Source of the DNA: Candidatus Hydrogenedentota bacterium | GTDB taxonomy: Bacteria; Hydrogenedentota; Hydrogenedentia; Hydrogenedentales; CAITNO01 | NCBI GenBank assembly: GCA_012730105.1 | Contig: JAAYBJ010000055.1 | Location: 1 to 54,377 of the forward strand | Length of the DNA: 54,377 nucleotides | Direction: 5' to 3' | Part shown: positions 45,107-54,377 of the stretch, piece after piece | Position numbering within the stretch: position 1 is the first letter of the stretch | How the letters are laid out: each line of letters starts with the position of its first letter | Program-made: the position numbers and the translations under genes | Notes under the pieces: model-generated | Databases searched by the model: none | What the model was told of the DNA's origin: nothing | What the model saw: the letters and a program-made list of their open reading frames with translations, nothing else

Positions 45107-47422
45107 TCAATTGTTTTTTCTTGGGGAATCGTCATTCTTTTCGGGTTTCGGATCGGAGACGCCGTAAAAAAAACGCAGGAGGCGCATACAGTTGTGTGAA
45201 ATCATCTGTCCAAACCGCCTCCCCATCAGCCAATACCGCCGGGAATGGGCCCTGCGCGCGGTCTGCATCAGGAAATGTTCGACTTGCGCAAATACTTCCG
45301 GACTGCCCTCGCCGTTAATAATACCATGGCGTTCCCGTTCAAACAGGGAAAACTGCTTCTGGCGAGCGCCCATACGGGCAAAGATGTCGGGACCGCTAGA
45401 GGGGTTCACCGTTGGATCTTTGGATGCCTGAACCACCAACGCGGGTATTTCCACTTCAGGCAATGCTTCGGCTGTGGCGTTCATGACGGCCGTTAACTGG
45501 CGCACGCCGGTCAACGGGTTCCTCGTATAATTGATATGCTTGTTTTCCGGGTCATTCTCCACAAAGTCCCAGGCATAGTGACTCTGGCCAAAACGTTTCA
45601 GCAGCGAATTAATAGAAATGATGGAAGGCACCAGTCGAATGGAATAGTTGCGCACATACAAGGGGGCGCAAATGGAAACCACGGCGCCCAGACAGGTTTT
45701 CTTCCTTGCCGCGGCAATCAGGGCGAGGCAGCCACCGGTAGAAAAACCGGTGACCACAATGTTATCGCTCAGTGTCCGCAAGATGGCATACCCCCGATTG
45801 ACGGAATCGTACCAGTCCTGCCATTCCCGCCGGGCGAGGTCCTCCGGGGCGGTTCCATGGCCGCGCAGCCGGACGGCGTAGACGGCAAAACCGCGCCGAT
45901 AGAGATGCTCCGCCAGGGCGCGCACTTCGAGGGGAGCGGCCATATACCCATGTGCCAGCACGACGCCGCCCCGGATACGCCAAGGACACAGAAGAAACGG
46001 CCGGCCTACCCAGGGCGGTTTGCAGTCGTGGGGATTATAGAAACGCGCGTATTCCTCTTCGTATTCACGCATATCCCGCTGCACCAGGTACCGGCGCAGG
46101 AAGGCCTTTACCACGAAATCAGGCGCCCAGGCGGCATAACGGGTGATGTTGGACTGGACCTGTGACGCTTCGAATTCATTGGCAATCACTTCCGGCGTCG
46201 CCTCTTCCGGCATGGCGTGGAACTCCGGCAGGGGCCGGAATTGTTTCTGTGTTTTTCGATACCCCCATTCGGTCGCAACCAGGTAGTGTTTTTCCACGGC
46301 CATTTCCAGGAAACCGCGGAACGGGGCGTGGGGTTCATCATGCAGCAGGGTTTCGCACTGCCGCACCAGATCAGGGTGAAGATGAAGGGCTTTCTTGCGC
46401 ACTTGAAGCAGGCTTAAGAAGATGCGTTCGCGGTATCCCCGTTCCGTAAAGAGCCGTCCCTCGGGCTGATAATGAATAATCCCCGCAAAGAGGTGGTCAA
46501 AATTGACGGTGACACCGGCATACACGGCGCGCATGCTCCTGTCCGTAATCACGCGCGCCGCTTCCTGGAACAGGTCGCGCGGATTGGATTCCAGGGCTTC
46601 CAGATCATGAAGTCCGCAGGCCATAATCCGCCCGTATTCCGGGGCCTCCAGGAACGCACCCACATCGAGGGGTTCTCCCAGCGTTATATCGATATCGGTA
46701 TCCTCGGCAAGTACCGTTCCCTCCACGGACAGTTCCGCCAGGGCCCGTTCGCTCAGGTCCGGCTCCATGCGCTTCGCCGCTCGCAGAAAAATATTTTCCC
46801 GCGCCCGAATCGGGTAGTAGGTGATATTCACCGGGATAATGACCGTTCGCACGGCCTTGACCTCGTCCGCCGACTCGAGATCAAAAAGTTTAAGAGCCTG
46901 CTGCAGCTGTTCCTGCTTGCCTTGCTCCCGAAGACAGCGAAACTTTGCCCGGTAGTAGGCGGTCCGCAAGGCCAGCGCCGCCGCGCCCGTACGAGGGGGC
47001 CGCCGGCGCACCCCGTCAAACACCTCGTATTGTCCGGCATTGTTGATGGCGCGCTTGTCTTTTATCATCGCCCCTTCAGGAAAAATAATCCAGGGATGAT
47101 CGCCTCGCAGGAGTGAGCGGATGATAATCTTGTCGCGGTCGGGATCCTCCGTAGAAATGGACCCTGTGGCCTTAAGATACTGGCCGATGCGTCCATGGAA
47201 CAGGTTTGCGGCGGCAAGGGACCATGGCTCGGAACGGGTGTGTTTATGAAGCAAATAGGGAAGGAGAAGCGTTTCCAGGCGGGTAAAATGGTTGGCCACG
47301 AAAATGACGGCCATGTCAGGCTCGATAACATCCGCGTTATGCAGACGGACCTTTGCCTTTACCAGTTTTGAAGCCAGATCGAGCAGCCACTTTGTCAATT
47401 GCAGCGCAATGGAAGCGGCCAT
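45107..47422 (-). CDS. Fusion of PlsC-like acyltransferase and alpha/beta hydrolase
   Basis: With ATG 47422 as start, the protein has 771 residues. The N-terminal third is a glycerophospholipid acyltransferase-type domain: H45-x4-E in VANHFTRLE and IIFPEGAM near 112-119, the substrate-binding block. The middle (about 280-460) is helical and unrecognised. The C-terminal part (about 475-740) is a serine hydrolase of the lysophospholipase/carboxylesterase kind, with VLAHGYMAAP, VRLRGHG, the nucleophile S561 in GFSTGG, the acid in QASKDPTV and the histidine in ERERHGI, so the triad is intact. A chain that both transfers and cleaves acyl groups suggests lipid remodelling. The upstream GTG at 47428 is disfavoured by the ribosome-binding site position. 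Confidence 0.87.
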   Translation of the reverse strand: MAASIALQLTKWLLDLASKLVKAKVRLHNADVIEPDMAVIFVANHFTRLETLLLPYLLHKHTRSEPWSLAAANLFHGRIGQYLKATGSISTEDPDRDKIIIRSLLRGDHPWIIFPEGAMIKDKRAINNAGQYEVFDGVRRRPPRTGAAALALRTAYYRAKFRCLREQGKQEQLQQALKLFDLESADEVKAVRTVIIPVNITYYPIRARENIFLRAAKRMEPDLSERALAELSVEGTVLAEDTDIDITLGEPLDVGAFLEAPEYGRIMACGLHDLEALESNPRDLFQEAARVITDRSMRAVYAGVTVNFDHLFAGIIHYQPEGRLFTERGYRERIFLSLLQVRKKALHLHPDLVRQCETLLHDEPHAPFRGFLEMAVEKHYLVATEWGYRKTQKQFRPLPEFHAMPEEATPEVIANEFEASQVQSNITRYAAWAPDFVVKAFLRRYLVQRDMREYEEEYARFYNPHDCKPPWVGRPFLLCPWRIRGGVVLAHGYMAAPLEVRALAEHLYRRGFAVYAVRLRGHGTAPEDLARREWQDWYDSVNRGYAILRTLSDNIVVTGFSTGGCLALIAAARKKTCLGAVVSICAPLYVRNYSIRLVPSIISINSLLKRFGQSHYAWDFVENDPENKHINYTRNPLTGVRQLTAVMNATAEALPEVEIPALVVQASKDPTVNPSSGPDIFARMGARQKQFSLFERERHGIINGEGSPEVFAQVEHFLMQTARRAHSRRYWLMGRRFGQMISHNCMRLLRFFYGVSDPKPEKNDDSPRKNN

Positions 47423-47430
47423 CAGCACGC

Positions 47431-50280: not shown

Positions 50281-51030
50281 TTATAGAGAGCCTCTGGTTG
50301 ACTGTATGCTGAACAGGGAAACCACGGCCACGCCCAACAGCAGGAAATCGCCCAGTTGCCGTTTGATACCCTCCGGAATACTTTGGCTCTTGTTGCACCC
50401 GCATCCGCAGGCATCTTCTTCGCCTTCGCCTTCAGCGGGCACTTCGCCTTCGCCTTCAGCGGGCACTTCGCCCTCGCCTTCAGCAGGTACTTCGCCTTCG
50501 CCTTCAGCAGGTACTTCGCCTTCGCCTTCAGCGGGCACTTCGCCTTCGCCTTCAGCGGGCACTTCGCCCTCGCCTTCAGCAGGCATTTCGCCCTCGCCTT
50601 CAACGGGCATTTCGCCCTCGCCTTCAGCAGGTACTTCGCCCTCGCCCTCAGCGGGTACTTCGCCTTCGCCTTCAGCGGGCACTTCGCCCTCGCCCTCAGC
50701 GGGCACTTCGCCTTCGCCTTCGGCAGGTAATTCACCTTCGCCTTCGGCGGGTGCTTCGCCTTCACCTTCAGCGGCAGGTTCATAGGTCACCACTGGGGAG
50801 AGGGTTAATCGGGCGCCGTCCGGATTCCAGAAATCACCACCCGTGTAATACATACCCAACAAACGAATCGCATTTCCATCCATATTCGTAAGGGCCCCAC
50901 CAGACCATGTATCCGCCGAGGGCAGCACTAAAAGCGCGCCGTCCGCATTGGTGGTGTCGGCAGAGGCCATACAAACAGCCGGGATCGTTAACAACGCCAC
51001 AAGCAGGAGAACGAACTTGTTCGTTATCAT
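50281..51030 (-). CDS. EGE-repeat surface protein with cysteine-rich C-terminal tail
   Basis: The 249-residue protein has a signal peptide (MITNKFVLLLVALLTIPAVCMASA), a short mature head of about 60 residues, and then about 15 copies of an octapeptide (V/A/L/M-P-A-E-G-E-G-E) encoded by a 24-base repeat. After the repeats come CGCGC-NK (C at about 206, 208, 210), a conserved I-K-R-x-L-G-D-F-L-L-L-G block that starts a membrane helix, and a short basic end. The tail matches that of the gene at 53841 closely. I infer a surface-exposed or stalk-like protein whose C-terminus is a sorting or anchoring signal. The head has no recognised domain. AAGGAG precedes the ATG at 8 bases. Confidence 0.85.
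   Translation of the reverse strand: MITNKFVLLLVALLTIPAVCMASADTTNADGALLVLPSADTWSGGALTNMDGNAIRLLGMYYTGGDFWNPDGARLTLSPVVTYEPAAEGEGEAPAEGEGELPAEGEGEVPAEGEGEVPAEGEGEVPAEGEGEVPAEGEGEMPVEGEGEMPAEGEGEVPAEGEGEVPAEGEGEVPAEGEGEVPAEGEGEVPAEGEGEVPAEGEGEEDACGCGCNKSQSIPEGIKRQLGDFLLLGVAVVSLFSIQSTRGSL
50410..50785. repeat. 24-base tandem repeat coding the EGE octapeptides
   Basis: About 15 near-identical 24-base units follow one another without spacers. Length variation between strains is expected from such an array. Because the period is a multiple of three, long open frames appear in several frames here and should not be annotated. Confidence 0.9.
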
Positions 51031-51261: not shown

Positions 51262-53415
51262 TCACGGCCAGGCCACGTTGTCCCGGACGCAATACAGATG
51301 CATCGGCGCCGGCGCCCCGGCGGTTGCAAAGCTGTTAGCGCCGCCGACACAATAGTAGAACTTGCCGCCATCCGCAGAGCCACTGGCGCCGCCAAAGGCG
51401 TTATCACCGCCCCTACAATTGGTGAAGGTGCCGCTCGCAACGAGTCCGAAGGAGTCATTACCGCCAACGCAGTTAGTAAAAGCACCGCTAGCCGTGCCAT
51501 TGTAGCCAAAGGAAAAATCCCCGCCTGTGCAGTTAACAAAGGTGCCGCTGGCCACGCCCACACTGCCGAAGGCGTAAACGCCACCCTTGCAGTTGATAAA
51601 CGTACCGCTCGCGATGCCGCTGGCGTTACCGCCGAAGGTATAGGCGCCCTCGGCCGTGCAATTTTCATAGGTACCCGCGTATTCCACGCTTTCCCGCATA
51701 CTTGCGATGTTAGCCCGGAATTTACAGTTGCGGATGCGTGTGGCTGCGGGCGAACCGGTATGGGGCATCCCGTCGTCCCAATTCGCACCGGGTTGATAGG
51801 CGAACACAGCACCAGACCATCCGGTATAGTGAAACACCAGATTTTCAATATGGACATCCTGGGCGGTCTGAACCAGCACATGGAAGTCGCGGCAGATATA
51901 TTGGTCGTCACTGGCGGTGGACAGGCCGACGAGATCCACGTATTCCGTATCCATCGTAAGCGGCCCGTCGACAAGATTGTATTTTCCCGGGGGCACCAGC
52001 ACGACGGCCCGGTTGGTCGGGCCCAGCGCAATGCCATACGGCCGTAACGCCGAAGCTTCCTCATAGGCGGCGAGCAGGTTTGTACCGTTTACCGCAGCAT
52101 CGGAGGTTACCTTGACGACGACACAGTTTTCAGAAACGCGGGGCAGTTTTTCGTCCAGGGCGGCCTGAGCCGCGATACTGACAGGCTTGTCCGCATCAGA
52201 AGTATCATCCACATTCGCCAGGCCCACCTGCTCCTTCGTTACCCCGTGGGGATTCGACATATCATCCGTATGGGTTGTCAGCGCTGCGCTGTCGGCATCC
52301 AATGCCGTCTGGACTGCCGTGCTCACCGGTTTATCCAAGTCCGCCGTATTATCCACATTTTCGAGGCCCAGTTGTTGTTTGGTTACCCCGTGGGGATTCG
52401 ACAGATTGTCCGTATGCGATGTCAAAGCCTCGTCGTCGGCTTTCGTATCCAAAGCTGCCTGGGCAGCCGTGCTCACCGGCTTGTCCATATCGGACGTATT
52501 GTCTACATCACCCAGGCCCACCTGCGCCTTGGTCACGGCGTGGGGATTGGTCACATTGCCTGTATGCGACGTCAGGGCTGCCGCATTCGCCTTGGCATTC
52601 AAAGCGGCCTGGGTGGCCGTGCTCACCGGCTTAGCCAGGTCTGACGTGTTATCCACCTCGCCCAGGCCCACCTGCGCCTTCGTCACCCCGTGGGGGTTGG
52701 CCAGGTCGTCAGCATGCGCCGTCAATGCAGCCACGTCGGCTTTGGCATTTAAGGCCTCCTGAGCGGCCAGACTTACCGGTTTGGCCAAGTCGGACGTGTT
52801 ATCCACAGCCCCCAGGCCCACCTGCGCCTTCGTCACCCCATGGGGGTTGGACAGGTCGTCGGCATGCGCCGTCAACGCCGCCGCATCAGCCTTGGTGTCG
52901 ATAGCGCTTTGAATGGGCGCCGTTACGCCGTCAAGACGGCCATATTCATCATTGTCCACCATGCCGTTGCCGATAGTACCCGCGTCCACTTGCAACACCG
53001 TGCCGGCTTCGAGCGCGAAGGGAACGCTGTGCACCCGGATGCGCCCGGGAAACAGGTCATCCGTTGCATCCCCATCCGGCGGCACATCGGTGTCAATGGC
53101 GAGTTCATACCATAGCTCCGCGGCGGCCAGGGCTTCCGGCGGCAGCACCATGGGCAGGCTGAACAGGCCTTCAGCGGAAAGTTCCACTGTTCCGGCCAGG
53201 TCCGCGCCTAATTGAGTGCCTTCCGTTTCCGCATCGAACATGCGGACCTGGAACACTCGGGCGCCTGTTAAAGGTATTCCCCCGGCATCCGCGAGGGAAC
53301 CGTTCACGTTCACCGTTTCCGGCGGATTTGCCCAAACGGCCATGCCCGTCACAAGCACCACCGTCAGAATAAGGGACACCGCGTGTTTGTTACCTCGACA
53401 GACTGGACCTGCCAT
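51262..53415 (-). CDS. Secreted protein with phage tail-fibre repeats and a C-terminal beta-helix
   Basis: With ATG 53415, preceded by AGGAGG, the protein has 717 residues and a signal peptide (hydrophobic about 13-30, then AVWA-NPP). Residues about 30-170 are a beta-domain often found before repeat regions in secreted proteins. Five repeats of 48-50 residues follow (about 175-425), each with NPHGVTKAQVGLG-x-VDNTSD-x-x-KPVS, the signature of phage T4/lambda-type tail-fibre repeats that trimerise. The C-terminal part (about 430-717) is a pectate-lyase-like right-handed beta-helix with VVLVPPGKYNLVDGPLT and many F-x-N-C-x-G-G coils. No other phage genes are near. I infer a secreted trimeric adhesin or glycan-binding fibre. 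Confidence 0.82.
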   Translation of the reverse strand: MAGPVCRGNKHAVSLILTVVLVTGMAVWANPPETVNVNGSLADAGGIPLTGARVFQVRMFDAETEGTQLGADLAGTVELSAEGLFSLPMVLPPEALAAAELWYELAIDTDVPPDGDATDDLFPGRIRVHSVPFALEAGTVLQVDAGTIGNGMVDNDEYGRLDGVTAPIQSAIDTKADAAALTAHADDLSNPHGVTKAQVGLGAVDNTSDLAKPVSLAAQEALNAKADVAALTAHADDLANPHGVTKAQVGLGEVDNTSDLAKPVSTATQAALNAKANAAALTSHTGNVTNPHAVTKAQVGLGDVDNTSDMDKPVSTAAQAALDTKADDEALTSHTDNLSNPHGVTKQQLGLENVDNTADLDKPVSTAVQTALDADSAALTTHTDDMSNPHGVTKEQVGLANVDDTSDADKPVSIAAQAALDEKLPRVSENCVVVKVTSDAAVNGTNLLAAYEEASALRPYGIALGPTNRAVVLVPPGKYNLVDGPLTMDTEYVDLVGLSTASDDQYICRDFHVLVQTAQDVHIENLVFHYTGWSGAVFAYQPGANWDDGMPHTGSPAATRIRNCKFRANIASMRESVEYAGTYENCTAEGAYTFGGNASGIASGTFINCKGGVYAFGSVGVASGTFVNCTGGDFSFGYNGTASGAFTNCVGGNDSFGLVASGTFTNCRGGDNAFGGASGSADGGKFYYCVGGANSFATAGAPAPMHLYCVRDNVAWP
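52140..52890. repeat. Five tandem tail-fibre repeats of about 150 bases
   Basis: The NPHG-VTK blocks recur at 150-base spacing for the first four copies and 144 for the last. The units differ by many synonymous and some replacement changes, so the array is older than the EGE repeats. Confidence 0.8.
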
Positions 53416-53840: not shown

Positions 53841-54377
53841 TTAGCCTCGGCTTGTGGTCGACCACACACCGAACAGGACGGCCAAGGTGACGCCCAGCAG
53901 CAGGAAATCGCCCAGTGTTCGCTTGATGGCGTTCGGGAAAGGCGCATTTTTGTTGCATCCACATCCACAGCCGTCGTCTTCCTCTTCGCCTTCACTTTCG
54001 CCTTCAGGCAGAATCTCTCCCTCACCTTCGGGCAGAATTTCACCCTCGCCTTCGGGCAGGACTTCACCTTCACCTTCGGGCAGGACTTCACCTTCGCCTT
54101 CGGGTAGAACTTCACCTTCTCCTTCGACAGGCGCTTCGCCTTCACCTTCGGCGGGTATCTCGCCCTCGCCTTCGGCGGGTACTTCGCCTTCACCTTCCAC
54201 AGGCGTTTCACCTTCACCCTCGGCGGGAATTTCACCTTCGCCTTCGGCAGGAATTTCACCTTCGCCTTCCAAAGGCGTTTCGCCCTCGCCCTCGGCTGGG
54301 ATTTCACCCTCGCCTTCGACAGACGCTTCGCCTTCACCTTCGGCGGGTATCTCGCCCTCGCCTTCGGCGGGTACTTC
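53841..54377 (-). CDS. C-terminal part of a second EGE-repeat surface protein (5' end missing)
   Basis: The frame is open to the window edge on the minus strand, leaving 178 residues. The visible part is mostly octapeptide repeats (EGEGE-I/V-P-A, -A-P-V, -V-L-P), more varied than in the gene at 50281. It ends in an acidic stretch, GCGCGCNK, a conserved IKR-x-LGDFLLLGV block that opens a membrane helix and a short STTSRG end. The tail is nearly the same as in the gene at 50281, so they are paralogous surface proteins with a shared C-terminal signal. A hairpin lies after the stop. The N-terminal domain and the signal peptide are outside the window. Confidence 0.85.
   Translation of the reverse strand, partial: EVPAEGEGEIPAEGEGEASVEGEGEIPAEGEGETPLEGEGEIPAEGEGEIPAEGEGETPVEGEGEVPAEGEGEIPAEGEGEAPVEGEGEVLPEGEGEVLPEGEGEVLPEGEGEILPEGEGEILPEGESEGEEEDDGCGCGCNKNAPFPNAIKRTLGDFLLLGVTLAVLFGVWSTTSRG

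Follow-up and report, generated by a model that had tools for sequence, protein, structure and literature searches.

A candidate two-gene surface-display cassette with phage-type receptor-binding parts in a Candidatus Hydrogenedentota bacterium

Introduction

A fibre gene and its downstream neighbour in a Candidatus Hydrogenedentota bacterium are interpreted here, with modest confidence, as a two-gene surface-display cassette with phage-type receptor-binding parts. The cassette probably serves glycan or surface binding. The first gene would encode an exported fibre, composed of an N-terminal docking module (N-module), a stalk of phage repeats and a tailspike-like beta-helix head. The second gene, located downstream on the same strand, would provide a membrane-anchored partner with a small domain, a long EGE spacer and a C-terminal membrane helix. 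As a tentative extension of this reading, the constant pair of N-module and partner may have been repeatedly loaded with heads and stalks from the phage repertoire, in a plug-and-play manner.

Organization of the fibre gene

The window (the whole stretch of DNA analysed, 54,377 nucleotides) makes up one entire contig, C342; the genome measures 5.63 Mb and is split into 343 contigs. The fibre open reading frame (ORF; 51262-53415, (-) strand) runs from an ATG at 53415 to a stop at 51262 and encodes 717 aa. From the N- to the C-terminus, the following parts are recognized:

53326..53415, (-) strand: putative Sec signal peptide of the fibre, aa 1-30 (sequence, hydropathy)
52996..53322, (-) strand: N-module, aa 32-140, ~110 aa, the constant part of the family (alignment of 12 members, genome searches, AF2)
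52876..52995, (-) strand: connector, aa 141-180 (alignment of 12 family members)
52147..52875, (-) strand: stalk of five ~50-aa NPHGVTK/VDNTSD repeats, aa 181-423 (repeat, PHROGs and viral searches)
51262..52146, (-) strand: head, predicted right-handed beta-helix, aa 424-717 plus the stop codon (AF2, viral relatives)

The N-terminus resembles a Sec signal peptide in sequence and hydropathy (best 15-residue Kyte-Doolittle mean 2.5, from residue 13). The connector is of the type '..L[DS]GVxxxIQxxxDxK..', which is common, with variations, to the 12 aligned family members.

A stalk of phage-type repeats

The repeat unit, NPH[GA]VTK..[VL]GL..VD[ND]T[SA]D..KPVS, is 48-50 aa long. Five units start at aa 190, 240, 290, 340 and 388 (spacing 50, 50, 50 and 48) and share 64-86% pairwise protein identity; at the DNA level, identity to the reference copies is 70-73%. 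The repeats are read as an old tandem duplication and not as chance.

Searches of PHROGs returned 38 families, headed by 'tail fiber protein' (E 1.6e-50), and among the 25 families listed the best stretch lies inside residues 168-450, in or close to the stalk. The stalk region is matched in 206 of 50,697 phage records. Among the 25 phage rows listed, 19 partly cover residues 189-424, and six from Klebsiella and Serratia phages (~300 kb) extend to residue 556 at 30% identity. Moreover, the repeat is encoded in at least 548 viral stretches (548 of 600 among the matches listed), and its identity to the 80 viral loci listed is 56-79%. Judged by these matches, the stalk is of phage type. Sequence searches of Pfam, NCBIfam and the PDB with the N-module, the repeat and the head gave nothing useful. 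PF22500, a sub-threshold Pfam match to the repeat, is taken as incidental.

Within the host order, the repeat occurs in three of 68 genomes, namely in the window, in its orthologue in genome G026 (two copies) and in genome G028 (single copy). The G028 contig (C12; locus L033, 1-20000) has PHROGs matches for terminase, major head and tape-measure proteins and encodes a one-repeat NPHSVTK fibre. Since this contig is phage, the G028 copy belongs to a phage fibre, either resident or binned there. As for other phyla, two Bacteroidota loci (L004, 5913-12716; L015, 7515-8159) encode proteins with signal-peptide-like starts and DNTSD-type repeats, and no phage genes were evident there by eye.

The beta-helix head

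The C-terminal 294 aa are predicted by AF2 to form a right-handed beta-helix (mean pLDDT 89.3, pTM 0.88; single chain, fed with 39 viral rows). The coils are short and Cys-bearing ('GTFxNCxGGxxSFGG'). The original prediction of five phage-type NPHGVTK/VDNTSD repeats, preceded by a signal peptide and followed by a beta-helix, was thus borne out by the similarity of the units, the PHROGs and viral matches, the hydropathy of the start and the AF2 model of the head.

Of 320 candidate viral stretches searched with a profile built from five heads, 132 encode relatives; 80 were kept. The terminase family phrog_2 was matched in 14 of the 40 records tested among these 80; its lack in the other 26 is compatible with fragments and other terminases. 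Because phrog_2 also matches in 11 of 14 named cellular genomes taken as a control, it shows phage genes and does not prove each record viral. In cells, the head was found in four of 386 genomes, all four within the host order (68 genomes). The best structural match in BFVD is an uncharacterised protein of an uncultured Caudovirales (E 7.9e-15, TM 0.74). The head is of phage type. Neither the NPH nor the VDNTSD motif is present in the head ORFs of the 80 viral loci (one examined per locus), so that stalk and head have not been seen together in a phage. A head of the same kind lies behind a lipoprotein-like start in a further genome (L022, 877-2331; G014 C374), where N-module, stalk and partner gave no match.

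Among solved structures, Foldseek ranked pectin methylesterases first (E 2.8e-4, TM 0.45). The 50 rows returned by VIA-align (Z 20.5 to 16.6) include the pneumococcal adhesin PfbA as well as alginate epimerases, phi29 gp12 and several tailspikes, that of Sf6 among them. With pectin methylesterases, alginate epimerases and enzymatic tailspikes as structural neighbours, at Z up to 20.5, the protein could be a secreted or surface carbohydrate-active enzyme, i.e., a beta-helix lyase, epimerase or hydrolase for which the stalk is a mere spacer, comparable to WceF. This is considered rather unlikely. The VIA-align matches share 6-16% identity with the head, and fold similarity at this level shows no activity. 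Furthermore, in 40 aligned heads, all acidic, basic or His columns of the coils (from residue 581) stay below 60%. The only fully invariant charged residues, R469 and D494, are located before the coils, and the conserved columns are mostly structural. Given these low values for charged and His columns in the coils, our guess is that the head binds rather than catalyses.

A tree was built from the part of the head before the coils with five cellular and 23 viral rows (34 of the 80 viral proteins covered this part well enough, and 23 of them differ). It is poorly resolved, base included. Four cellular heads group together at 90/91, and the viral locus L112 and the fifth cellular head stand beside them at 90/92; the cellular heads are kept on one side in 24% of the bootstrap trees. 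The tree does not give the direction of head transfer. The base of the tree and the position of L112 would suit a reverse transfer, in which phages took their heads from bacteria; this is quite improbable, as the viral heads found are far more numerous and cellular ones were found in four of 386 genomes. On the reading preferred here, transfer would have gone from phage to bacterium. On L112, some ORFs look terminase- and portal-like by eye, and neither PHROGs nor Pfam returned a match for them.

The N-module and the fibre family

In a weak AF2 model, the N-module is rich in beta-strands, with pLDDT 60-76 across them. Over N-module plus stalk, the model is poor (mean pLDDT 65.6, pTM 0.32), and its sole Foldseek match at E <=0.001, Lig v 1 (E 1.2e-4), was set aside for this reason.

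No relatives of the N-module were found among 78 viral stretches. In the host order, there are 17 matches among 68 genomes, 12 of them strong (241-264 bits, in 8 genomes) and five weak (37-52 bits, in 3 genomes). Most of these weak matches belong to the 'YQGRLTDAAGNP' type, and some are followed by fibre-like repeats. When 386 genomes were searched, the strong form was found only in the same 8 genomes, and distant forms outside the host order occurred in 9 genomes (43-56 bits). The N-module looks bacterial. In the Chitinophagaceae protein of L015, the start aligns with the N-module and is followed by a DNTSD repeat; hence, the joining of export modules to such stalks may be more widespread.

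Several stalks and heads are combined with the N-module. The fibres of the window and of G026 carry NPH repeats and the beta-helix head. In genome G040, two tandem fibre proteins combine the same head with an 'NTTAIATN' stalk. Five family members have 'VYT'-type stalks (one VYL) and BNR heads, whose aligned identity is 41-51%; one of the five is a paralogue encoded on contig C121 of the source genome, and both members of this kind that were scanned are matched by BNR or sortilin models. Another N-module protein (L301, 861-3911; G036 C6) adjoins a partner gene and is matched by the Peptidase_S74 chaperone at 29.6 bits (the cut-off being 22). Such a chaperone fits trimeric fibres of the phage kind. 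By eye, the head of this protein is YadA-like; in Pfam, it gave S74 and a sub-threshold beta-roll. Two members (G030 and G035) have other heads with no Pfam match.

In the N-module tree, the window and G026 group with these two members at 98/97, away from G040, and monophyly of the four beta-helix carriers is rejected (p-AU 0.0065). The heads do not follow the N-module tree. Since the heads of the beta-helix carriers group and their N-modules do not, heads were exchanged or acquired more than once.

BNR heads have viral relatives as well. An alignment-based profile matched 29 of 91 viral stretches, corresponding to 25 loci, whereas a single BNR-head sequence as query found no viral relative. 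In 18 of these loci the match covers the BNR part, and in 7 it is restricted to the first ~78 residues. A viral contig (L134, 599-4897) encodes a protein of 1433 aa in which a BNR part is combined with a beta-helix head; both head kinds are present in the fibres of the source genome.

The EGE partner gene

The protein encoded downstream of the fibre gene spans 50281-51030 on the (-) strand. Its parts, and a second EGE protein, are as follows:

50770..51030, (-) strand: N-terminal part of the partner, signal-peptide-like start and ~60-aa domain (NADGAxLxLPxADxWSG...)
50410..50769, (-) strand: EGEGE spacer of the partner
50281..50409, (-) strand: C-terminus of the partner, with CGCGCNK motif, membrane helix and short tail
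53841..54377, (-) strand: second EGE protein with similar C-terminus, upstream of the fibre gene, cut by the contig end

In the window, G026 and G040, the gene behind the fibre gene encodes a ~60-aa domain between a signal-peptide-like start and an EGE spacer. These three sequences, picked for their adjacency to fibre genes, were the seeds of a partner profile. At E up to 0.01, it gave 12 matches in 9 of 68 genomes: the three seeds, eight new real partners and one match in G061 that was dropped, being out of frame with stops. Ten of the 11 partner genes adjoin a fibre gene on the same strand, nine downstream and one upstream (G015). For the nine downstream partners, the gap between the fibre stop and the partner open frame is -53 to 219 nt. 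In the remaining case (G026 C28), the contig begins with sequence for the end of a BNR head, and the partner gene follows. The fibre on G026 C183 shows no partner because its gene is cut by the contig end in BNR-head-type repeats. The middle of the partner varies and consists of an EGE spacer, a PKD domain or an Ig-like part with EF-hand. Eight complete partners end, by eye, in a hydrophobic helix; those of G026 C39, G040 and G019 are cut by contig ends within the EGE code.

The fibre and the EGE protein could be mere neighbours in a surface-protein island, the N-module being generic and either self-anchoring or not anchoring at all. The distant N-module relatives in 9 genomes outside the host order agree with this, as do the five weak matches inside it, since their contigs gave no partner match. 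Such an arrangement is unlikely in view of the co-occurrence. The strong N-module form and the partner domain are found in the same 8 of 68 genomes, adjacent and on one strand, with varying spacers and heads. The corresponding chance of 1 in C(68,8), or 1.4e-10, assumes independent genomes and unselected seeds, neither of which is true, as genomes of one order are not independent samples. With a stricter threshold (E 1e-4) in 386 genomes, nine partner matches were found in 7 genomes, all in the host order. On this genomic evidence, the downstream EGE protein is a conserved partner of the fibre.

In the window, 219 nt separate the fibre stop from the partner open frame (~230 nt to the ATG), and a terminator-like stem lies at the fibre stop (51277-51263). 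Because of this gap and this stem, co-transcription of the two genes is uncertain. A promoter and terminator scan found 1 and 4 sites, compared with 1.6 and 3.9 in shuffles; terminators are no commoner than expected by chance.

The C-terminus with a Cys-Gly motif, membrane helix and short tail recurs in the window (50284-50421, 53853-53981) and is a candidate sorting signal. In the source genome, it has 29 matches at E up to 0.1; for 18 of these, E is <0.001. No CTERM model matched the window partner at E up to 1, apart from the sub-threshold NF045523 (MYXO-CTERM-anchored family; E 0.013, 14 bits against 500, over the EGE stretch), and none matched at E 0.01 among eight proteins scanned.

Genomic surroundings

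Both contig ends (1-513 and 53841-54377) lie within EGE-coding repeats; the assembly probably broke there for this reason. Elsewhere in the window, one protein (45107-47428) is a fusion of an acyltransferase domain and an alpha/beta hydrolase.

PHROGs searches with 11 other ORFs of the window returned an esterase, a PAPS-reductase-type family, two unknown families and weak EGE matches, and no convincing virion gene was among them. For the EGE protein, there were two weak matches, both within the EGE stretch. One of these, 'baseplate assembly protein' (E 6.4e-4, no stretch passing alone), is taken as low complexity. For the G026 (L034, four ORFs) and G040 (L035, one ORF) loci, both at contig ends, PHROGs gave no match. 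Just upstream of the G026 fibre gene, an ORF (L034, 6442-7719; C39) is transposase-like by eye and has no match in Pfam or PHROGs. A prophage or tailocin remnant was rejected on the basis of the PHROGs-scanned neighbours and the ORFs read by eye.

A fibre still mounted on a tail, as part of a prophage, a tailocin or an extracellular contractile injection system, would account for the phage-type repeats and head, and a phage contig with the same repeat does exist in the host order. It is nonetheless highly improbable. The signal-peptide-like start and the lack of viral N-module relatives argue against it, together with the absence of convincing virion genes from the 11 window ORFs and the five ORFs of the G026 and G040 loci. 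Moreover, what is conserved next to the fibre gene is a membrane-anchored protein of EGE, PKD or Ig-like type.

The original prediction had located the protein away from phage genes, which agrees with the 11 ORFs scanned, and no complete prophage was seen around the locus in G026 and G040 (five ORFs, at contig ends). It had also suggested a search for paralogs with other C-terminal heads, and BNR, other and, by eye, YadA-like heads were found in the family. As for the proposed domesticated fibre, stalk and head are indeed of phage type, but they form a mosaic on a bacterial-looking N-module and not a whole captured fibre. The latter was rejected, with no N-module relative among the 78 viral stretches and no repeat motif in the head ORFs from the 80 viral loci. 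Flanking EGE proteins are present on both sides as described, but the downstream one appears to be a conserved partner and not a mere neighbour.

Proposed mechanism and comparison with known systems

According to the cassette model, the fibre would be exported by Sec and would probably form trimers by way of its stalk and head, as other such fibres do. The N-module would bind the partner domain, and the fibre would thereby be held at the cell surface, on its outer side. The spacer would lift the partner domain off the membrane, and the head would contact a glycan or another surface. Heads and stalks from the phage repertoire would change on a constant N-module and partner.

Parts of this design are known from other systems. 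Phage NPHGVTK/VDNTSD tail fibres (PHROG 35419 and others) have the same repeat, with the stalk followed by further C-terminal parts. In contrast to these, the fibre described here has a signal-peptide-like start, an N-module without viral relatives among the stretches searched and a membrane-protein partner, and no tail cluster was seen in its surroundings. The Sf6 and phi29 gp12 tailspikes resemble the predicted head fold (Z 17.9-19.4), but identity to the head is ~9-12%, the head coils are short and regular (GTFxNC), and no active site was recognised.

Precedents exist for tailspike-like proteins in bacteria and for phage-encoded adhesins. WceF of Pantoea stewartii, a glycosidase of an EPS cluster, is a trimeric tailspike-like beta-helix outside phage; unlike for the cassette here, the parts of the source consulted mention no fibre repeats, N-module or partner gene (PMC7949094). 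PblB of streptococci is a phage-encoded protein that acts as a surface adhesin (PMC4508584; PMC5241397). Whereas PblB is described as phage-encoded (PMC4508584), the fibre here would belong to a stand-alone cassette with a putative export signal and a partner.

With its Cys motif, membrane helix and short tail, the C-terminus of the partner has a parallel in MYXO-CTERM proteins (PMC11980579), and many C-termini of this type occur in the genome. The window partner differs in that its match to NF045523 is far below threshold and lies over the EGE stretch.

Trimeric autotransporter adhesins of the YadA type are stalk-and-head surface fibres. They share this general layout with the fibre, and the head of one relative looks YadA-like by eye. 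No YadA-type membrane anchor was found in the window fibre (Pfam, E up to 1), which ends in the beta-helix head. Unlike in the YadA type, anchoring seems to come from a second gene.

Literature searches found no description of such a cassette, which is no proof of its absence from print. What seems new is the combination in one cassette: the N-module stays constant, phage-type stalks and heads change on it, and an anchored partner is dedicated to it.

Conclusion

If plug-and-play display is true, cells would obtain phage-like grips for glycans or other cells without a phage tail. It would show how bacteria reuse receptor-binding parts of phages outside any phage particle. Furthermore, it would name a small partner domain that seems to hold fibres, and would provide a natural scaffold with changed heads. 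Binding of the N-module to the partner domain would become testable, as would the idea that the heads keep the ligands of their phage relatives.
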